DNA of 64,000 nt, from NCBI RefSeq assembly GCF_012184425.1, contig NZ_VTOW01000001.1, positions 1,736,001-1,800,000 on the forward strand, given 5' to 3'. The notes under the pieces are model-generated. The model ran no database searches, was not told the origin of the DNA, and saw only the letters and a program-made list of their open reading frames with translations. Positions within the stretch are counted from its first letter, which is position 1. Every line of letters begins with the position of its first letter. The translations under genes and the position numbers were made by a program. Positions 53,455 through 63,373 of the stretch are shown here, piece by piece. The stretch comes from Candidatus Manganitrophus noduliformans. Lineage in GTDB: Bacteria > Nitrospirota > Nitrospiria > SBBL01 > Manganitrophaceae.

Positions 53455-53838
53455 ATTCTTTACGGAGGGGTCATCCAAGAACACGCGCGTCGGCCGAGGA
53501 ATGTCGGCTCCTTGGAAAATCCCGATATCCGGCATGAAGAGGTGAATCCTTTCTGCGGTGACCGGATTCGGATTGAGGCGATCCTGGATTGTCATCGGAG
53601 AGTGGCCGAGATCCGGTTTCGCGGAGACGCCTGTATGATCAGTCAGGCCGCCGGCTCGATTCTCACCGAAATGATCAAGGGGTGGCCGATCGAGGCGATC
53701 GAGCGGTTGAAAGAGGCCGACCTCTTGAAGGCCCTTGAAGCCCCCCTCCGTCCGGCCCGCATCAAATGCGCGCTGCTCCCTCTGGAAATCCTCCAATCGG
53801 GCGTCGCCTCCTATCGGCGCCTTCACGCGGTATCCTAA
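53455..53838 (+). CDS. SufU/IscU-like iron-sulfur scaffold protein, probable ATT start
   Basis: The SufU family core is plain: NPFCGDRI, FRGDACMISQAAGS and RIKCALLPLEIL hold the three conserved Cys, and Asp follows the first. The conserved N-terminal part YGGVIQEHARRPRNVGSLEN is encoded in frame upstream of any ATG, GTG or TTG except a TTG that would cut it off (53512). The frame opens only at the xdhC stop (53434-53436). An ATT at 53455 preceded by AAGGAG with a six-base spacer is the best start, giving 127 residues. The role is a zinc-dependent sulfur acceptor or Fe-S scaffold for the adjoining desulfurase. It ends one base before that gene. Confidence 0.82.
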   Translation: MLYGGVIQEHARRPRNVGSLENPDIRHEEVNPFCGDRIRIEAILDCHRRVAEIRFRGDACMISQAAGSILTEMIKGWPIEAIERLKEADLLKALEAPLRPARIKCALLPLEILQSGVASYRRLHAVS

Positions 53839-53839
53839 A

Positions 53840-55081
53840 ATGTCTGCTCCCGGCGCGCTATTGAATAGCGAGGCGATCAGAAAGGATTTCCCGATTCTCG
53901 GCAGGACGGTCCAGGGAAAGCCGCTGATTTACCTCGACAACGCCGCAACGTCGCAGAAGCCCTATCCGGTCATCGAGCAGATCACCTCTTATTACGAACG
54001 ATCCAACGCCAATATCCACCGGAGCGTTCACACGCTCGGTGAAGAAGCGACCGCCCTTTATGAAGCGGCCCGGGATATGGTCTGCCGGTTTATCCATGCG
54101 CCGAGCCGCGAAGGGGTGATCTTCACAAGGGGGACGACCGAAGCGGTCAACCTCGTCGCCGCAAGTTGGGGGCGAACCCACATTCAACCGGGTGACGAGA
54201 TCCTTCTCTCCGTTTTGGAGCACCACGGCAACCTGATTCCGTGGCAACTCCTCGCTGAAGAGAAAGGGGCGAAATTGGTCTTCCTCGATATGGATGAAGA
54301 GGGGAGACTCCGGTTAGACAAGCTCGATCGTCTCTTGACCGACCGGACCCGTTTGGTGGCGGTGACAGCGGCATCGAACGTGATGGGGACGGTCATCCCC
54401 CTCCGTCGAATTGTAGAACGAGCGCATGCGGCCGGGGCGCCGGTTTTCGTGGACGGCGCTCAGATGGCGCCTCACATTCCGGTCAATGTTCGGGAAATGG
54501 GGTGTGATTTCTTCGCCTTCTCGGGGCACAAGATGCTCGGCCCCACCGGGATCGGCGTGCTTTACGGCAAACCGGAGCTGCTGGAGAAGATGCCTCCTTT
54601 TTTGGCCGGCGGAGAGATGGTCCGGGAGGTCTGGCCCGACCGGGCGAGTTGGAACGCGCTTCCCTGGAAGTTCGAAGCGGGCACCCCCAACATCGCTTCG
54701 GCGATCGGCCTCGGCGCCGCTGTCAAGTATCTCGATCAACTCGGCATGGAGGCTGTCCGTACGCACGGGCAGGCATTGGTCCGCGAGGCGTTGACCGCCC
54801 TGTCAACGTTGGAAGGGGTGACGGTTTACGGTCCGCCCGCTTCGGAAGAGCGGGCTCCGCTGGTTTCTTTTAACTGTCAAGGCATCCATCCACACGATCT
54901 CGCCGCCGCGCTCGACGAAGAGGGGATCGCCGTCCGCGCCGGACGGCACTGTGCCGACCCTTTGATGAAGCGCCTCGGCGTGGCAGGAACGGCGCGTGCC
55001 AGTTTTTATCTCTATAATACCCGTAGCGAAGTGGAAGCCTTCGTTCAGTCCGTTCAACGAGCGATTGCGCTTTTGTCGTAA
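53840..55081 (+). CDS. Cysteine desulfurase (SufS/NifS4-like)
   Basis: A 413-residue PLP enzyme of group II. The N-terminal ...YLDNAATSQKP motif, VFTRG-type TTEAVNLVA, cofactor Lys in FSGHKMLGPTGIGVLYG (about residue 230), and the catalytic Cys loop VRAGRHCADPLMKRLGV are all present. It is closest to SufS by layout. It follows the SufU-like gene by one base, and both lie at the end of the iorAB-mocA-xdhC run. It probably supplies sulfur for the sulfido ligand of the Mo cofactor and possibly for Fe-S clusters. It could also serve ThiI. Confidence 0.92.
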   Translation: MSAPGALLNSEAIRKDFPILGRTVQGKPLIYLDNAATSQKPYPVIEQITSYYERSNANIHRSVHTLGEEATALYEAARDMVCRFIHAPSREGVIFTRGTTEAVNLVAASWGRTHIQPGDEILLSVLEHHGNLIPWQLLAEEKGAKLVFLDMDEEGRLRLDKLDRLLTDRTRLVAVTAASNVMGTVIPLRRIVERAHAAGAPVFVDGAQMAPHIPVNVREMGCDFFAFSGHKMLGPTGIGVLYGKPELLEKMPPFLAGGEMVREVWPDRASWNALPWKFEAGTPNIASAIGLGAAVKYLDQLGMEAVRTHGQALVREALTALSTLEGVTVYGPPASEERAPLVSFNCQGIHPHDLAAALDEEGIAVRAGRHCADPLMKRLGVAGTARASFYLYNTRSEVEAFVQSVQRAIALLS

Positions 55082-55104: not shown

Positions 55105-56241
55105 TTATTTAATGTTTTCGATCGTGACCACTTTTCCGTTTTCGATTTTTGTCAGAAAGACCTGGTGGAGGCCTTGATGGTCGGCGGGGGTGAACCGTAT
55201 CTTCAGGCCCCCCGCGTCTATGCTAAGATGCTCCAGCGCGGAGACAAACGCTTCCCGGGTGAGGGGAGCGGTTCTCTTCAACGCTTCCACCAGCACCTTG
55301 GCGCCGAGATAACTCTCCAGGCTGACCGGGTTGGGGGTGAGTCCTGCGGCTTTAATCGCTGAGAGATATTCTTTTACGATCGGCAAGGAGCTGTCGGTTG
55401 GATTCGGCACGATCTGTGTCACAATAAGCCCGTCGGCGGCCTCTCCGGCTTCGTGGATCAGGGGGAGGGTGCCGGCTGAAATATGTAAAAGTTTCGGATT
55501 GAATCGACGCGCCCTTGCCTTTTTCAGAAAGGCGGCGCACGGCTCATAAGTACAGGCGAGAATCACCGCCTCCGGATCGGCTTTGATCAACGTTTCCAAT
55601 GCCTCGCCGACATCGAGGGTGTTCCGTTGATATTTCCCATCCCCGACCAAGGCCATGTTCCGCTTCCGCAACGCCCGGATCAGTCCGGCCCGGCCCGCTT
55701 CCCCCATGGCGTCGTCTTGGGCGAAGACCCCGATCCGGGTCACCTTCAGATCCCGGGTCAGCCGTTCGACCAACACTTCAATCTCGTCGGCGTAGCTGGC
55801 GCGGATGTTGAAGATATATTTATTCACCGGATTGCGGATGATCTCCGCCCCCGTCAGCGGGAAAAGGTAGGGGACGCGGGCGCGCGTGACGATCGGCACG
55901 ACGGCCGCGGAGTTCGGCGAGCCGATGTATCCGAAGAGGGCGAAAACCTTCTCCTCCTCGATCAATTTACGGGTATTCGCGATCGTCAGGGCGGGCCGGT
56001 AGCCGTCATCGTAGACGATCAGCTTGATCTTGCGGCCCTGGACCCCCCCGGCGGCGTTGACCTTATCAAAATAGACCTCCGCCCCTTCCCTCATCATATT
56101 CCCATTCTCGGAAGTCGGTCCGGTTTGGCCGTTGGACATCCCGATGAGGATCTCTTTTTCCGTGATCCCCTCTTCCGCCGAGGAAAAGGTCGCCGATAAA
56201 AGCAAGACCAGAACGACCCATCCTCGTTTCCCCTTCATCAT
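55105..56241 (-). CDS. LivK-type periplasmic binding protein 1
   Basis: A 378-residue exported protein with a signal peptide (about 1-22, ending SSAEE) and the type I periplasmic-binding fold: ITEKEILIGMSNGQTGPTSE, KIKLIVYDDGYRPA, FALFGYIGSPNSAAVVPI, RIGVFAQDDAMGEAGRAG. Its closest relatives in the window are the two other binding proteins of this operon. It is the last gene of the set, nine bases after the chemotaxis receptor, and convergent with the desulfurase gene. No permease or ATPase gene is nearby. It probably binds a branched-chain amino acid, amide or small organic ligand and presents it to the receptors. Confidence 0.9.
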   Translation of the reverse strand: MMKGKRGWVVLVLLLSATFSSAEEGITEKEILIGMSNGQTGPTSENGNMMREGAEVYFDKVNAAGGVQGRKIKLIVYDDGYRPALTIANTRKLIEEEKVFALFGYIGSPNSAAVVPIVTRARVPYLFPLTGAEIIRNPVNKYIFNIRASYADEIEVLVERLTRDLKVTRIGVFAQDDAMGEAGRAGLIRALRKRNMALVGDGKYQRNTLDVGEALETLIKADPEAVILACTYEPCAAFLKKARARRFNPKLLHISAGTLPLIHEAGEAADGLIVTQIVPNPTDSSLPIVKEYLSAIKAAGLTPNPVSLESYLGAKVLVEALKRTAPLTREAFVSALEHLSIDAGGLKIRFTPADHQGLHQVFLTKIENGKVVTIENIK

Positions 56242-56250
56242 GGCAGCCCC

Positions 56251-57768
56251 TCAGGCGGGATTCTGATCCGATCGGTTGAGCTCAAATCGGAAGTTGTTTA
56301 TCAGCGCCGTCAGATCGCTCCCCATCCGGGCCAGCTTTTTCGAGGCGACCAGAATCTCCTCGGCCGTTTTCGCCGTGCTTTTGGACCCATCGGCCACCCC
56401 TTCGATGCTCTGGTTCACCTCCTTGGTTCCGTGCGCCGCCTGGGCGACCCTGCCGCTGATCTCGTTTGTCGTCACCGTCTGCTCTTCCAGCGCCCCCGAA
56501 ATGTCGATCGAGATCTGATTGATCTGATCGATGATCTCCCCAATCTTTCCAATCTCCGAGACGGCTTCCTTGGTATCCCCCTGGATGGCGCCGATCTTTT
56601 GTGTGATCTCCTCGGTCGCTTTGGCTGTCCTCGTGGCGAGATCTTTCACCTCGTTCGCCACGACGGCAAATCCTCTTCCGGCCTCCCCCGCGCGCGCCGC
56701 CTCGATGGCGGCATTCAGCGCCAGGAGATTGGTCTGCTGGGCGATGGCGGTGATCACCTTGACCACCTGCCCGATCTCCATGCTCGATTCGCCCAGCTTG
56801 GAGATGGTTTTGTTGGTCGAATCGGCCATTTTCACCGCTTGGGCGGTGATCTGCGTTGCATTGACGATGTTGCGGGAGGTCTCCTTGAGCGAGATCGATA
56901 TCTCCACGGAAGCGGTCGCGACATCCCCCACCATTCTGTTGATCTCCTGGCTGGTCGAAGAAACCATGCTGGCCAGACGCTCCGTCTCCGAGGAATTGGC
57001 GCTCATCTGCTGGCTGGCGGCCGAGAGCGCTTCGGAGGAGAGGGTGATCTGCTTGCAGCTGTCGCGAACGGCATAGACCAATTCCTGCATCACCTTTTTA
57101 AGGCCGGCCGACATTTTCGAGAAAGCCCGGGCGAGGATGCCGATTTCATCCTGTGCGCGCAGGAGCCTCGGCTCAACCTCGACCGTCATATCTCCCTGGG
57201 CGACTTTTTCGATCACCCCGACCAGGTGGGCCAGGGGGCGGGTGATTCCCCGAAAGAGGATCGTCACCCCGAGAATGAGCAGGATCAGCGCCACCAGGTT
57301 GCCCACGGCCACCGTCTGGATGCCGCTGCGCAGGTTTTTCGAGAGGGTCTCTTGGCTGTAGCCGATCTGAAGGTGCCCGACGGGCGTTTGATCTTCCCGG
57401 AGGCTGTGGATTTCCCGATCATAAATCGACAGCGAAGAGATGTCGCTCGGGGGCTTGCTGTTCTCCGTCAACGGCGCCCTGTCGGCATCGTAAAAAACGA
57501 CGAAAACCACGTCGGGATCTTTCAATGCAACCTTGACGAACATCTCCAAGGCCTGAAGATCGAAATTCATGACGTAGCTGGCGCTGATTTGCGCCAGCGT
57601 ATCGGCCAAGGCGTTTCCTTTGGATTCCATCAGGGATCGGATCGTGGCATGATTTCGATTGATCATGAGGGCGCCCAATCCGCCCAGCAGAATCACCATG
57701 AAAATGAGATTCGGGATCAAGAATTTCTTGCTGATGGAATTCAGCCGAAAAACTTTTTCAAGCGCCAT
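56251..57768 (-). CDS. Methyl-accepting chemotaxis receptor
   Basis: A 505-residue transmembrane receptor. Helix 1 (about 15-38) and helix 2 (about 155-178) bracket a periplasmic sensor domain of about 115 residues (SESKG to SKNLRSG). HAMP follows ([20 protein letters not shown]), then the signalling domain with the hairpin tip [37 protein letters not shown] (about 365-401, intact). Methylation-site regions are present; no C-terminal CheR pentapeptide is seen. The N-terminal 210 residues are nearly the same as those of the kinase encoded just upstream. Its first 28 bases overlap that gene. It should couple ligand sensing to CheA/CheW. Confidence 0.94.
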
Positions 57769-59267
57769 GTGTTCTTTCGCCTTTCATCGCGCGGGGTTTG
57801 AACGGTCGCCGCTTTTCCTTTTGACCCTGTATCGGAGAGATGTTCCGTCGACGGCCGGTTTTGCCGACCGGTCGGTTGAGGTTTATTCTTCCGGGGAAGC
57901 CAGAAAAAGAATGTTGCTCCCTTCCCCTTCTGAGACTCCACCCAGATCCTGCCGCCGTTCAGATCGACGATCTTTTTTACGATGGGGAGTCCCACGCCGG
58001 TTCCCTCGACCCTCACATCCTGCAGCCGCTGGAAAATGGCGAAGACCTTTTCATGATAGGCCGGATCGATCCCGATTCCATTATCTTTGACGTAGCACTC
58101 CACCCCCCCCTTCGACTCTTTCCCCCCGATCTCAATCCGAGGGTGGGGTTGATCCCCCATGAACTTTGTGGCATTGGAGATCAGGTTCTGGAAGATTTGG
58201 GCCAGCTGGACAGGGTTGAACATAATGCGTGGGAGAGGAGATTGAACGGAGACCGCGATGTTGCGCTCTGCGAGTTGATTTTGAAGAATGTCCAGGACAT
58301 TTTGGATGACATCGTTGACCTCGATCATCTCTTGGCGTTCCTGCATCTTTCCAATCCTCGAGAGGGTCAAAAGCCCCTGGATCAATTCTTCCATGTAGTT
58401 CGCGTTGCCGATGATTCGGTCGAGGTAATGCCTCGCGTGATCGTTTAATTCTTGACCATACTCTTCTTTCATCATGCCGGCCATTCCATTCATCGAGACC
58501 ACCGGGGACTTCAAGTCGTGTGAAACGGTATAAATGAACGCTTCCAACTCCGCCGTGCGCGCCCTCACCTGTTCCTCCAGGTGGTCGTGAGACCGAGCAA
58601 GCTCTTCGCTCATTCGGTTGAAGCTGCGGGCCAAAACCCCCATCTCATCGGGGCGATCGACCAGGCGGGGGGCGACGCGGGCGGTCAAGTCGCCTTGGGC
58701 GACTTTTTCGATCACCCCGACCAGGTGGGTCAAGGGCCGCGTGATTCCCCGAAAGAGGATCGTCACCCCGAGAATGAGCAGGATCAGCGCCACCAGGTTG
58801 CTCACGGCCACCGTCTGGATGCCGCTGCGCAGGTTTTTCGAGAGGGTCTCTTGGCTGTAGCCGATCTGAAGGTGCCCGACGGGCGTTTGATCTTCCCGGA
58901 GGCTGTGGATTTCCCGATCATAAATCGACAGCGAAGAGATGTCGCTCGGGGGCTTGCTGTTCTCCGTCAACGGCACCCTGTCGGCGTCATAGAAAACAAC
59001 AAAAACAACATCGGGGTCTTTCAACGCTTCGTTGACGAACAATTCCAAGGCCTGAAGATCGAAATTCATGACGTAATTGGCGCTGATCTGAGCGAGGTTG
59101 TTGGCCAGGGCGTTTCCCTTTGATTCCATCAAGGATCGGATCGTGGCATGATTCTGATGGATCATGAGGGTGCCCAATCCGCCCAGCAGGATCACCATGA
59201 AAATGAGATTCGAGATCAAGAATTTCTTGCTGATGGAATTCAGTCGAAAAACCTTTTCAAGCGCCAT
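57741..59267 (-). CDS. Transmembrane sensor histidine kinase sharing the receptor's sensor domain
   Basis: A 508-residue kinase. Residues 1-210 (two membrane helices, periplasmic sensor, start of HAMP) match the chemotaxis receptor almost residue for residue. A coiled coil follows ([20 protein letters not shown]). HisKA has the phospho-acceptor in [17 protein letters not shown]. The ATPase has [18 protein letters not shown] and [14 protein letters not shown]. The SHDLKSP box places it with phytochrome/WalK-like HisKA kinases. The C-terminus is low-complexity and hydrophilic and reads through the receptor's start. No response regulator lies beside it. Its neighbours are binding proteins on both sides. 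Confidence 0.93.
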
Positions 59268-59279
59268 GTGTTCTTTAAA

Positions 59280-60449
59280 TTATTTGAGGTTTTGGATGGT
59301 GACTGCTTTTCCGTTTTCGATTTTTGTCAAAAAGAGCTGGTGCAGGCCTTGATGGTTGTTCGGGCTAAACCACACCTCCAGCCCTCCGGCGTTCATCTTC
59401 AGTTTTTCGAGCGTAGAGATAAACGCCTCCCGGGTCAGCGGAGAGGTTTTCTTCAGCGCTTCCACGAATACCTTGGCGCCGAGGTAACTCTCCAGACTCA
59501 CCGGGTCCGGAGCAAGACCGGCGGCTTTCATATCCGAGAGATATTCCTTTACAATCGGCAGGGAACTGTCGCTTGGATTCGGAACAACCTGGGTCATGAT
59601 GACCCCGTCGGCGTCTTTCCCCGCTTCCTGGACCAGCGGGGTGACGCCCCCCGCAAAGAGGAAAAATTTGGGGTTGAATCCACGCTCTTTGGCCTTTTTG
59701 AGAAAAACCGCACAGGGGGTATAAGGACAAAACATAATTACCGCTTCGGGATTCGCTTTGACGAGCGCTTCCAAAGCGACATCGACATTGATGGTATTCC
59801 GCTCAAATTTCCCGTCCCCGACCAGCGGCATATTTCTTTTCCGCAAGGCCCGCATCAGCCCGGCGCGGCCTGCTTCACCCAGGGCGTCGTCCTGGGAAAA
59901 GACGCCGATCTTGGTTATCTTCAGATCCTCGGTCAACCGCTCGACCATCACTTCAGTCTCGTCCGCGTAGCTTGCGCGGAGGGTGAAGATATATCGATCC
60001 ACCGGATTGCGAAGGAATCGAGCCCCCGTGAACGGGAAGAGATAGGGGACATGGGCTCTTGTGAAGATCGGCACGATCGATGCGGAGATCGGTGAGCCGA
60101 CATACCCGAATAAGGCGAACACCTTCTCCTCCTCGATGAATTTTCGGGTATTCTCGATCGCTTTGGCGGGCTGGTAGCCGTCATCAGAGACGATCAGCTT
60201 GATCTTGCGGCCATGGACCCCTTCGGCGGCGTTGACCTTATTGAAAAAAACGGCGGCTCCTTCCTTAATTAAAATGCCAACCCCGGAAAGGGGGCCGGTC
60301 TGAGCGTTGGACATACCGAGGAGGATCTCTTTCTCCGTCACCCCGTCCTCCGCCCATAAAGGGGGAGTCGACAAAAGCAATAGGATCAGGCTGGAGATGA
60401 AGGGATTCTTGATAATAGAGTTTAATCTGAAAAATTTCCGGGACGTCAT
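59280..60449 (-). CDS. LivK-type periplasmic binding protein 2
   Basis: A 389-residue exported protein. The fold motifs parallel protein 1: VTEKEILLGMSNAQTGPLSG, KIKLIVSDDGYQPA, FALFGYVGSPISASIVPI, KIGVFSQDDALGEAGRAG. The N-terminus differs from the other two: MTSRKFFRLNSIIKNPFISS resembles the start of the two membrane receptors ([15 protein letters not shown]) and precedes the hydrophobic signal, so the leader looks recombined from a receptor gene. Position Cys (MFCPYTPCAVF) is shared with protein 3. It lies 14 bases after binding protein 3 and 12 bases before the kinase. Confidence 0.9.
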   Translation of the reverse strand: MTSRKFFRLNSIIKNPFISSLILLLLSTPPLWAEDGVTEKEILLGMSNAQTGPLSGVGILIKEGAAVFFNKVNAAEGVHGRKIKLIVSDDGYQPAKAIENTRKFIEEEKVFALFGYVGSPISASIVPIFTRAHVPYLFPFTGARFLRNPVDRYIFTLRASYADETEVMVERLTEDLKITKIGVFSQDDALGEAGRAGLMRALRKRNMPLVGDGKFERNTINVDVALEALVKANPEAVIMFCPYTPCAVFLKKAKERGFNPKFFLFAGGVTPLVQEAGKDADGVIMTQVVPNPSDSSLPIVKEYLSDMKAAGLAPDPVSLESYLGAKVFVEALKKTSPLTREAFISTLEKLKMNAGGLEVWFSPNNHQGLHQLFLTKIENGKAVTIQNLK

Positions 60450-60463
60450 CTCTCTCTTAGGCT

Positions 60464-61600
60464 TTATTTTAGGTTCCCGATCGTCACCACTTTGCCGTTT
60501 TCAATTTTTGTCAGAAAGACCTGGTGGAGGCCTTGATGGTCGGTGGGGGTGAAGGAGATCTCCAGCCCTCCCGCCTCCATGCTGAACTTCTCCAGCGTGG
60601 AGATCAGCGCCTCCCGGGTCAGGGTGGAGGTCTTCTTTAAGGCCTCCACCAACACCTTGGCGCCGAGATAACTCTCCAGACTCACCAGATCGGGAGTGAA
60701 TCCGGCGGCTTTCATGTCCGAGACGAATTCCTTCACAATCGGCAGGGCGCTGTCGCTCGGATTCGGCACAATCTGAGTGACGATGAGCCCGTCGGCGGCT
60801 TTCCCCGCCTCGTGGATTAAGGCGGTGGTACCGACCCCCAGGTGTAAGAAGAGGGGGGAGAATCCACGCGCCCTGGCCTTTTTGAGAAAAGCAGCGCAAG
60901 GCGTATAGGGACAAGCCAGCATCACCGCCTCGGGGTTGGCTTTCACGAGCGTCTCCAACGCCGCCTCGACATCTTCGGTATTCCGTTCATATTTCCCGTC
61001 CCCGACCAGCGGCAGATTTCGCTTGCGCAAGGCCCGGATCAATCCGGCGCGGCCTGCTTCCCCCATGGCGTCGTCCTGGGCAAAGACGCCGATCTTGGTC
61101 AGCTTCAGATCCCGGGTCGCCCGATCGACCAAGACTTCCGCTTCGTCCGCGTAGCTGGCCCGAAGGTTGAAGATATATTTATTGACCGGATTTCGGATGA
61201 CTTCCGCGCCGGTGAGCGGGAAGAGATAGGGGACGCGGGCGCGCGTGATGGTCGGCACGATGGCGGCGGAGATTCCGGAGCCGATGTAGCCGAATAAGGC
61301 GAAGACCTTGTCCTCCTCGATGAACTTTCGGGTGTTGGCGATCACCTTGGGGAATTCGTAACGATCATCGTAGACGATCAGCTTGATCTTGCGGCCCTGG
61401 ATCCCTCCGGCGGCGTTGACCTTGTTGAAGTAAACCGTGGCCCCTTCCTTCATCGCGATACCCAACTCATAAACGGGTCCGGTCTGGGCGTTGGACATGC
61501 CGAGGAGGATCTCTTTTTCCGTGACGCCGTCTTCCGCCCGGGAGAAAGACGCAGATAAAAGCAGAATAAGAACGAACCCCCATGCCTTGCCTCTCAACAT
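60464..61600 (-). CDS. LivK-type periplasmic binding protein 3
   Basis: A 378-residue exported protein. The start at 61600 is chosen for GGAG seven bases upstream and a standard signal peptide (AWGFVLILLLSASFSRAE); 57 codons of open frame before it have no secretion character. Fold motifs: VTEKEILLGMSNAQTGPVYE, KIKLIVYDDRYEFP, FALFGYIGSGISAAIVPT, KIGVFAQDDAMGEAGRAG. It is the first gene of the five-gene operon. It is closer to protein 1 in its N-terminal half, and shares ACPYTPCAAFLKKARARGF-like segments with both. Its ligand may differ: the SELGIAMKEG region that contacts ligand in this fold varies among the three. Confidence 0.9.
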   Translation of the reverse strand: MLRGKAWGFVLILLLSASFSRAEDGVTEKEILLGMSNAQTGPVYELGIAMKEGATVYFNKVNAAGGIQGRKIKLIVYDDRYEFPKVIANTRKFIEEDKVFALFGYIGSGISAAIVPTITRARVPYLFPLTGAEVIRNPVNKYIFNLRASYADEAEVLVDRATRDLKLTKIGVFAQDDAMGEAGRAGLIRALRKRNLPLVGDGKYERNTEDVEAALETLVKANPEAVMLACPYTPCAAFLKKARARGFSPLFLHLGVGTTALIHEAGKAADGLIVTQIVPNPSDSALPIVKEFVSDMKAAGFTPDLVSLESYLGAKVLVEALKKTSTLTREALISTLEKFSMEAGGLEISFTPTDHQGLHQVFLTKIENGKVVTIGNLK

Positions 61601-61963
61601 GACAAGCTCCTTATGCAGAGAACATACGGTTGTGAAAAGTGGGGTCTGAATCTCAGAATCTCGTCGAATGAGACGTCTTCTGATGCGGTTGCATTTGTCG
61701 TCGCCTTTCCAAGAGAAAAAAGGAAATCTCCGAGGGCTTGGTCGACAGACAATCAGTCGAAAGTATAGCACCGAAACGGACCTTGTCTATATTTCCGCAC
61801 GGTATCGATCGTGACGGCGGAAAATACATTAAATACCCGCAACCACGGATTTATTAGCTCCCGATAGAGGTGGAAATGATTCGCCCGGGCGCGTCGCACG
61901 GTTCTTTCTCTGCGATGCGGATGGATGCTTTTCGGGAAAAAAAGGGGAGGGACGGATCGGCCC
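61601..61963. other. Promoter-side gap of the sensory operon, no gene seen
   Basis: 363 bases upstream of binding protein 3 and downstream of the convergently placed membrane-protein gene on the same strand. No supported open frame. It should hold the operon promoter. I see no clear sigma70 pair and no CRP- or sigma28-type site I would defend. Confidence 0.4.
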
Positions 61964-63220
61964 TTATATTTCTCCGCAGCCGTATTGATGCGTCGATTTC
62001 GGGAAGAACCATCCCGATTTTTCGGTCAGGAAAAGGCGGACCGATCTGTCCGGCACGTGAGAACAGATCGTGTCGAGCACCGCTTTGAAGATTCTTTTTT
62101 CCGGATAGGGATTGGCGTTGAACTCGTGGAGGGTCCAGGCATTCAAATCGAGCACCGCCCAACCGTCGCGCTCGGTCACAAAGGGCGAAAGCTCGGCCGG
62201 CAGACGGGGCGCCGCATCGGGGTGCATCCGGATTTGGCCGTGGGTGACGTTCCCCGTATAGACGTTGAACGAGAGGGCGGAATCCCAGCGGTTCACATTA
62301 TTCAGAAGCGGGAGGATTCCAATCAAGAGGACGGCGAGCGCCTGCGGGAGGTTGTAGAAACGGGGGGCGCCGAACATTTTTTTGAACGCAAATGGCGGCG
62401 CTTTGTAAAAGAGCAGCCAGGCCTGCGCCGCCATCGTCTGGCCCCAGATCCAGGCGCTGTTGTTCCAGTCGTTTCTGAACGGTCCGATGAGGAAAAAAAT
62501 AAGCGCGTGCATCAACAGCGCTTCGTAAAGGGCGAAGGTGCGAAACCGTTTCGTCAGAAGTCCGATCGCAAAGAGCACTTCGAAGAGCGCTGCAAAAACG
62601 CCGAGGGCCGGCAGGGTGGGAATGTCGAACGGCAGAAGATCGGTCAGCGGCCGGAGGAACCAGGGGAATTCCTCGTTGAAAAAATGGGTGTTCAGCTTCT
62701 GGACCCCCCCCCAGAAATAAACCGCGGCGAGGGTGAACCGAAATCCGGTGAGAATGCGATGCGCTTCTTCCTCGCCCGCATCCCTTCTGTAGGTGAGCAG
62801 AAGGAGGAAACAGAAAAAGAAATGATAAAACGACGGCCAGATGCGGCTTTGATCCTGTAGAAAGAGAATCGTAAAAGCCGCAACGATCAACCCGACCCAC
62901 ATTTTCGACCGAGGCTGGATGACCAGGGCGAGAAGGAGGCCGGAGAAGAGAGCGAGAAACAAATAATCGAACGGATAGGGAAAAGCCGGAACGAGCCCAA
63001 AGAGGGGAACCAGAGGATAGAGCCGGCTGGAAGTCCAGAGCTTCCAGGAAAAGCCGAGGCAGAGCAAAACGAAAACGGCGAGAAGCCTGATCAATAAGGT
63101 CAGCCGTTTTTCTTCGCTCCCGAAGATCGATGCAGATCCCTCCGGCTGCGATTCCGACCCGCTGAGTCGCGGCGAGGGGCTCAGGTGCGAAGCCGGTTTC
63201 GAACGGGGCTTCGTTTTCAT
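61964..63220 (-). CDS. HTTM-like integral membrane protein
   Basis: A 418-residue protein with a hydrophilic N-terminal 50 residues, about nine transmembrane helices and a C-terminal soluble part of about 90 residues. The segment LTGFRFTLAAVYFWGGVQKL followed by FFNEEFPWFL is the pattern of HTTM (vitamin-K-dependent carboxylase-like) membrane domains. The start at 63220 is preferred over a frame extension to 63262. It is divergent from the carbamoyltransferase gene, with 153 bases between starts. The C-terminal domain (SVRLFLTEKSGWFF) has no motif I recognise. The biological role is unknown. Confidence 0.75.
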   Translation of the reverse strand: MKTKPRSKPASHLSPSPRLSGSESQPEGSASIFGSEEKRLTLLIRLLAVFVLLCLGFSWKLWTSSRLYPLVPLFGLVPAFPYPFDYLFLALFSGLLLALVIQPRSKMWVGLIVAAFTILFLQDQSRIWPSFYHFFFCFLLLLTYRRDAGEEEAHRILTGFRFTLAAVYFWGGVQKLNTHFFNEEFPWFLRPLTDLLPFDIPTLPALGVFAALFEVLFAIGLLTKRFRTFALYEALLMHALIFFLIGPFRNDWNNSAWIWGQTMAAQAWLLFYKAPPFAFKKMFGAPRFYNLPQALAVLLIGILPLLNNVNRWDSALSFNVYTGNVTHGQIRMHPDAAPRLPAELSPFVTERDGWAVLDLNAWTLHEFNANPYPEKRIFKAVLDTICSHVPDRSVRLFLTEKSGWFFPKSTHQYGCGEI

Positions 63221-63373
63221 ACGTGCTTTCTCTTCAAAGAATAAACAGAACGAATATATCATAGGTCAGGCCGTTTTCATTCACGGATAAAAATCACCCG
63301 AGGCGACCGCCGATATTCCAAGCGTAAGATCCTCTATCTTGACAGAAACCAGGATCGATGTTAAGACCGATGA

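Follow-up and report, generated by a model that had tools for sequence, protein, structure and literature searches.

Introduction

In several described systems a periplasmic binding protein acts on a signal receptor. In chemotaxis of the MBP-Tar type the receptor is a chemoreceptor, and the binding protein also serves a transporter; TorT and LuxP act on the sensors of the histidine kinases TorS and LuxQ; and BasB-BasT and CosB-CosT of Halobacterium are gene pairs of a binding protein and a chemotaxis transducer. Here we analyse a five-gene operon of Candidatus Manganitrophus noduliformans (phylum Nitrospirota), located within positions 1,736,001 to 1,800,000 of contig NZ_VTOW01000001.1 (64,000 nucleotides (nt), hereafter the window). 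It encodes three LivK-type periplasmic binding proteins (BP1, BP2 and BP3), a histidine kinase (HK) and a methyl-accepting chemotaxis protein (MCP). We favour, with a probability of about 0.7, the reading that this is a transporter-free, binding-protein-dependent sensing operon, in which BP1-3 dock on a sensor common to HK and MCP.

The operon resembles BasB-BasT and CosB-CosT in pairing a binding-protein gene with a chemotaxis transducer gene; those archaeal systems differ in having one binding protein, one transducer and no kinase that shares the sensor. Like TorT-TorS and LuxP-LuxQ it combines genes of a periplasmic binding protein and a histidine kinase, whereas those two systems have a single binding protein, of another subfamily, and a single output. 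Binding protein and chemoreceptor occur together as in MBP-Tar, but MBP also serves a transporter and the binding proteins of the operon have no linked one.

Among characterised pairs of a solute-binding protein (SBP) and a receptor, the sections of PMC11113362 drawn on here count as gene neighbours 10 of 11 pairs with kinases and three of 11 with chemoreceptors; they also cite SBP-activated kinases and, for the archaeal binding-protein/transducer case, Kokoeva 2002. By analogy with the systems in those sections and in excerpts of PMC9602780, the operon would work like known SBP-activated receptors. That binding proteins can activate receptors is established; the composition of three binding proteins with a kinase and a chemoreceptor is a new variation on this principle. 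An earlier annotation of the window from its letters and open reading frames (the sequence-only reading) knew of no named system with this composition, and our literature search likewise recognised no paper describing it (three BPs with a sensor-sharing kinase and chemoreceptor) or describing a BP clade dedicated to receptors.

Operon composition

The five genes were found in the order and spacing that the sequence-only reading gave: they lie on the minus strand as BP1-BP2-HK-MCP-BP3, with intergenic gaps of 14, 12, -28 (an overlap) and 9 nt (Table 1). Its assignment of roles holds as well, Pfam giving Peripla_BP_6, a known SBP family, in BP1, BP2 and BP3 alike, HAMP, HisKA and HATPase_c in HK, and HAMP and MCPsignal in MCP. 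HK and MCP each join an extracytoplasmic sensor to a signalling output (Pfam; transmembrane segments by eye), and by eye the kinase motifs of HK and the hairpin tip of MCP are apparently intact. Their sensor halves are nearly the same and their outputs differ, as had been noted: residues 1-177 are 93% identical, and beyond HAMP there is no relation (HisKA and HATPase_c versus MCPsignal). The operon genes are under purifying selection (dN/dS 0.12-0.28, 11 pairs). At the level of sequence, the features of SBP-activated receptors (an SBP, a receptor and conserved linkage of the two) can all be recognised.

Neighbourhood test of the binding-protein clade

In a first tree of 33 BPs, those of the operon group with MCP-adjoining BPs of three other Nitrospirota genomes, with a lone BP of genome G026 and with BPs beside a 710-amino-acid (aa) membrane protein that bears a Cache domain. 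LivJ, LivK and BPs of transporter type are set apart from this group. A profile made from 14 BPs of this clade was searched against 395 genomes of the phylum, accepting matches at E 1e-60 or better. This gave 52 places in 47 genomes, of which 12 lie in the window genome or other genomes contributing to the profile; the remaining 40 were all scored. A script defined the operon chain as genes on the same strand with gaps of at most 250 nt, extending over no more than four genes in either direction. Home-made hidden Markov models served to call kinase, MCP, permease and ATPase genes, and a motif to call GGDEF.

A receptor gene (kinase, chemoreceptor or GGDEF/EAL) is the immediate neighbour of the BP in 35 of the 40 loci and is in the chain in 38, while a transporter gene is in the chain in none of the 40. 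Thirteen of 18 genus codes include an immediate receptor. Of 36 immediate receptor neighbours, 34 are downstream of the BP, and 31 overlap it (gaps of -4 to -22 nt). Outside the genus the pairings are BP-MCP, BP-HK or BP-GGDEF/EAL.

Control BPs came from a PF13458 search of 60 genomes, from which 40 regions holding 43 BPs were picked by hand down the upper ranking; these regions are absent from the clade list and the frames are under ~520 aa. Here a permease or ATPase is in the chain for 24 of 43, a signalling gene for three (one of which also has transport) and neither for 17, six of the 17 being at contig ends. Only two of 43 have an immediate receptor. The difference between clade and control gives a Fisher p of 1e-15, which is overstated because the rows are related.

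A second, quick tree of 92 rows, with long branches among the controls, omitted 15 near-copies from genera g23 and g76 and counted as receptor-linked the Cache/channel-like neighbour of two profile-member rows. The clade of the operon BPs (SH-aLRT 100) holds 43 rows, 37 receptor-linked, six with neither kind of neighbour and none transport-linked; the 49 rows on the other side are 28 transport, three receptor, one both and 17 neither or cut off. Four changes between receptor-linked and transport-linked are needed on this tree. These trees place BP1-3 in a clade distinct from the relatives that are linked to transporters, and the neighbourhood test across the phylum, with its control, gives strong support to a link from BP to receptor.

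The MCP-adjoining BP of genome G148 (L122) is not a member of the clade, which means that linkage to receptors has arisen elsewhere too. Two loci place a BP inside a chemosensory operon: L121 (2803-10701) reads CheW-CheW-BP-MCP-CheB-CheR followed by a CheA-like frame (by eye), and L122 (3189-10123) reads CheW-BP-MCP-CheR, next to which come a small regulator (by eye) and CheA.

Beyond the phylum, a search of plasmids (PLSDB) gave 170 records with a match, of which we examined five, from different organisms chosen among 25 matches listed. Plasmids of Terrarubrum and Phaeobacter carry a BP of the same clade with an MCP directly downstream, as in the operon, and differ from it in having one BP, one receptor and larger MCPs. 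A Burkholderia stagnalis plasmid has a BP followed by an annotated response regulator and an EAL protein, and in Eleftheria and Comamonas plasmids the BP has no adjoining receptor. BP-MCP or BP-phosphorelay order is therefore present in proteobacterial relatives. A permease adjoins the BP in none of the five records, whose gene tables are incomplete; the Phaeobacter record has an AzlC-type permease gene beyond the MCP, on the other strand. Since relatives in other bacteria also adjoin signal receptors, the BPs probably serve to inform the cell about chemicals and not to take them up.

Transporters and ligand

The sequence-only reading held that the LivHMGF permeases which normally accompany such BPs are absent, and named a nearby liv operon owning BP1-3 as evidence that would overturn it. 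The window genome has six BPD_transp_2 matches, forming three pairs at C1:565-567k, 578-580k and 1892-1894k; the operon, at C1:1791-1798k, is separated by about 95 kb from the nearest match, and every one of these permease sites comes with a binding protein of its own. From these data we reject a nearby liv operon as owner of BP1-3. With BP1 as query, operon BPs and those of the permease sites are 24-28% identical over part of the protein.

Besides a linked permease, a second feature of LivKHMGF-type importers is missing. LivJ residues T102, D121 and E226, which we take to be those coordinating the amino acid, are replaced in 17 clade BPs aligned to LivJ by G, by Y and by S, A or G, respectively, the alignment near 202 and 226 being possibly off by one or two columns. 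A transporter BP of the window genome keeps T, D and D in these columns. The absence of the LivJ-type coordinating residues makes a branched-chain amino acid an improbable ligand and, judged by these columns, the LivK label misleads about what is bound.

At its N-terminus BP2 begins with MTSRKFFRLNSIIKN, which is similar to the cytoplasmic start of HK and MCP, as if the beginning of the gene had been copied from a receptor gene during the tandem duplications.

Shared sensor and probable gene conversion

Compared with Pfam by sequence, the sensor part matched no family, sCache models included. A profile-profile comparison with an alignment of ten sensors from BP-linked receptors gave a probability of 92.5 (E 4.8e-7), and the two of those ten receptors that were scanned (L198 and L192) match sCache_3_2. 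A sequence search of the PDB with the sensor gave a single weak match, 5o7j_A 'Histidine kinase' (E 0.0018), presumably GacS.

In the window genome HK and MCP are identical along an unbroken 172 nt, which covers codons 98-155 and corresponds to the second half of the sensor. In the equivalent stretch of Candidatus Manganitrophus GAC4, HK and MCP differ at 33 sites; between the MCP copies of the window and GAC4 there are 31 differences, and at all 31 the window MCP has the HK base. An identical run this long arose in none of 20000 draws when the 54 mismatches were shuffled over 600 nt. The tract looks like a recent gene conversion with HK as donor, a single event that may or may not have been favoured by selection.

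A profile search with the sensor found 51 places in 36 of the 395 phylum genomes; a scan of genome contigs found only three loci.

Variation within the genus

The sequence-only reading proposed a dedicated five-gene system, to be sought in the same order in other genomes. We compared six genomes of the genus, including the window genome and GAC4. The layout occurs in two (window and GAC4), is reduced in two and was not found in two. In GAC4 the BP1 frame is broken into three, through gene decay or a sequencing error. Genome G004 has BP-BP-HK-MCP with a BP remnant at the place of BP3 and one more BP elsewhere, G002 has BP-MCP only, and there is no operon-type match in G001 (72% complete) or G005 (98% complete). 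HK homologues in two same-genus genomes are 94 and 81% identical to HK, and MCP orthologues are present in GAC4, G004 and G002. All four loci (window, GAC4, G004 and G002) adjoin the same desulfurase-like gene (by eye).

Given this variation, the layout is best described from its gene content as a changeable local expansion of a BP and receptor pair and not a fixed machine. Of the earlier proposal, a transporter-free arrangement linking BPs to receptors stands; a fixed five-gene unit does not, and the five-gene order, though present in GAC4, is rare. The findings suggest an ancestral BP/chemoreceptor pair and a lineage-specific expansion with an output swap: a BP-MCP pair would have been duplicated and one receptor copy would have exchanged its output for a kinase. 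A tree of sensor halves does not separate the alternative branching orders of the HK and MCP copies; that the MCP form came first is argued from gene content (G002, and BP-MCP pairs elsewhere) and not from this tree.

Favoured reading and alternatives

In the mechanism that we propose, three secreted LivK-fold proteins would bind small molecules in the periplasm and, loaded or unloaded, dock on the small sCache-like sensor of the two membrane receptors, with all three serving both. Docking on HK would alter phosphotransfer to a response regulator encoded elsewhere, and docking on MCP would alter CheA activity and movement. CheW-like domains occur at 11 places in the window genome, and some of the frames (561-877 aa) could be CheA. 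Another BP-linked kinase (L194) has a single-domain regulator downstream.

Several observations weigh against this reading. Genera g23 and g76 supply 21 of the 40 clade loci, which are not independent. Five of the 40 have no immediate receptor and two none in the chain: L181 has a decarboxylase neighbour, L191 a 610-aa neighbour without Pfam match and a kinase beyond the gap limit, and in L177, L174 and L175 the receptor is one gene further. Outside the genus and G026 a BP adjoins the receptor in only four of 46 sensor-class loci, each time directly upstream of an MCP, most of the others being an MCP without BP; with 42 of 46 lacking an adjacent BP, the sensor class can function without one next to it and does not by itself imply a BP partner. 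No response regulator gene adjoins HK, and AlphaFold models of the sensor and BP1 (mean pLDDT 55.9 and 56.9) are too poor to judge an interface. Finally, the sections of PMC11113362 used here report AgtS and AruS of Pseudomonas aeruginosa, with PA0602, AgtB and PA4985, where SBP genes likewise lie near sensor kinase genes. Binding was assayed for these two neighbour sets and none was found, a caution here; the SBPs are of another family (SBP_bac_8). Both this result and the 42 loci without BP favour an alternative in which ligands act on the sCache-like domain of the receptors without an intermediary and the BPs are only co-regulated, or buffer or scavenge ligand, with no receptor contact. We think this unlikely, since co-regulation alone does not predict a separate BP clade that is linked in 38 of 40 loci to receptors, which vary in both sensor and output type, and in none to a transporter.

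That the BPs serve a distant liv-type permease in trans, the receptors sensing the same nutrients, is more improbable still. BPs can in principle share permeases, and the genome has three liv-type pairs; each pair has its own BP, however, to which the operon BPs show the low, partial identity given above, and the BP clade has no transport-linked row among 43. A sizeable minority chance goes to the BPs being redundant, with the same ligand, in a recent and partly decaying tandem expansion that is no multi-ligand hub; this is additive and not exclusive, being compatible with the favoured docking mechanism except for different ligands. It draws on the split BP1 of GAC4, the BP3 remnant of G004 and the mutual identity of the copies (69-77%). 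Against it, the three BP-BP comparisons within the window have dN/dS 0.22-0.26, the GAC4 orthologues of BP2 and BP3 are 97 and 99% identical, and some pocket-aligned columns differ among BP1/BP2/BP3 (LivJ column 18, L/V/N; 150, M/L/M; 202, P/P/T).

A wider proposal builds on the docking mechanism, and we advance it tentatively, at slightly less than even odds. There would be a cross-phylum, receptor-dedicated family of LivK-fold co-receptors without canonical amino-acid binding, and the operon would be a hub with many inputs and two outputs: its BPs would compete for one docking surface kept the same by gene conversion, and gene regulation and movement would thereby respond to one and the same mixture of chemicals.

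Features and neighbouring loci

Coordinates are collected in Table 1. The best promoter-like site of the operon region is the one upstream of BP1. Downstream lies the convergent gene mentioned above, 53735-55081, cysteine desulfurase-like (by eye), and upstream a gene unrelated to the operon (61964-63262).

Table 1. Features of the operon, in window coordinates.
Feature	Position	Strand	Basis
BP1, LivK-type periplasmic binding protein, 378 aa	60464..61600	-	Peripla_BP_6 2.2e-65; in receptor-linked clade; signal peptide by eye
BP2, LivK-type periplasmic binding protein, 389 aa	59280..60449	-	Peripla_BP_6 3.1e-63; in receptor-linked clade; signal peptide by eye
HK, membrane histidine kinase, 508 aa: sCache-like sensor, HAMP, HisKA, HATPase_c	57741..59267	-	Pfam
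HK periplasmic sensor part, ~codons 38-150 (borders by eye)	58818..59156	-	profile-profile match
MCP, methyl-accepting chemotaxis receptor, 505 aa: sensor as in HK, HAMP, MCPsignal	56251..57768	-	Pfam
MCP periplasmic sensor part, ~codons 38-150 (borders by eye)	57319..57657	-	93% identity to HK, residues 1-177
BP3, LivK-type periplasmic binding protein, 378 aa	55105..56241	-	Peripla_BP_6 2.8e-68; in receptor-linked clade; signal peptide by eye
172-nt tract, HK copy (putative conversion donor)	58803..58974	-	identical to MCP copy
172-nt tract, MCP copy (putative conversion recipient)	57304..57475	-	HK base at 31/31 sites differing from GAC4 MCP
Promoter-like site upstream of BP1	61762..61789	-	10/12 matches, TG before second hexamer; consensus match only

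Some loci met in the searches deserve mention in their own right. Elsewhere in the window genome (L171, 785-7326; G000:C1:658-671k) a kinase with an sCache_3_2 sensor, 52% identical to HK over residues 126-461, is directly preceded by a 296-aa secreted-looking protein, perhaps a binding-protein/kinase pair of a different family; the region carries small regulators (by eye). In L178 (3626-8267) and other g23 loci a BP-HK pair overlapping by 4 nt has a Response_reg and SpoIIE phosphatase protein upstream, together with a small protein, by eye a possible anti-sigma-factor antagonist acting as partner of the phosphatase, a candidate BP-fed partner-switching system. The clade BP of L174 (2828-9836) has a HAMP-GAF-hemerythrin membrane protein on one side and a GAF/PAS-GGDEF receptor on the other.

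In order relatives, clade BPs adjoin a 710-712-aa membrane protein (L162, 5136-7268; L163, 2927-5059; L164, 6242-8380; L165, 2989-5121). Its N-terminal part is of Cache type (MCP-like_PDC_1 in the three scanned) and its C-terminal part resembles a prokaryotic pentameric ligand-gated channel (by eye); the pair may form an ion channel gated by the BP. The portion of PMC549065 consulted describes such channels fused to, or in operons with, other domains of binding-protein or Cache type.

Significance

From its sequence, a solute-binding protein can usually not be assigned to a transporter or to a receptor. A well-supported clade with no transporter link in 40 loci offers a sequence test for binding proteins dedicated to receptors, and it leads to the prediction that many orphan kinases and chemoreceptors are controlled by binding proteins. 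It also suggests that the amino-acid-transport names of such proteins are often wrong; the clade BPs are annotated as ABC transporter substrate-binding protein. In the operon itself, near-identical sensors on a kinase and a chemoreceptor provide a natural test of whether a single docking surface can feed two outputs, and of whether a shared sensor can integrate several binding proteins.

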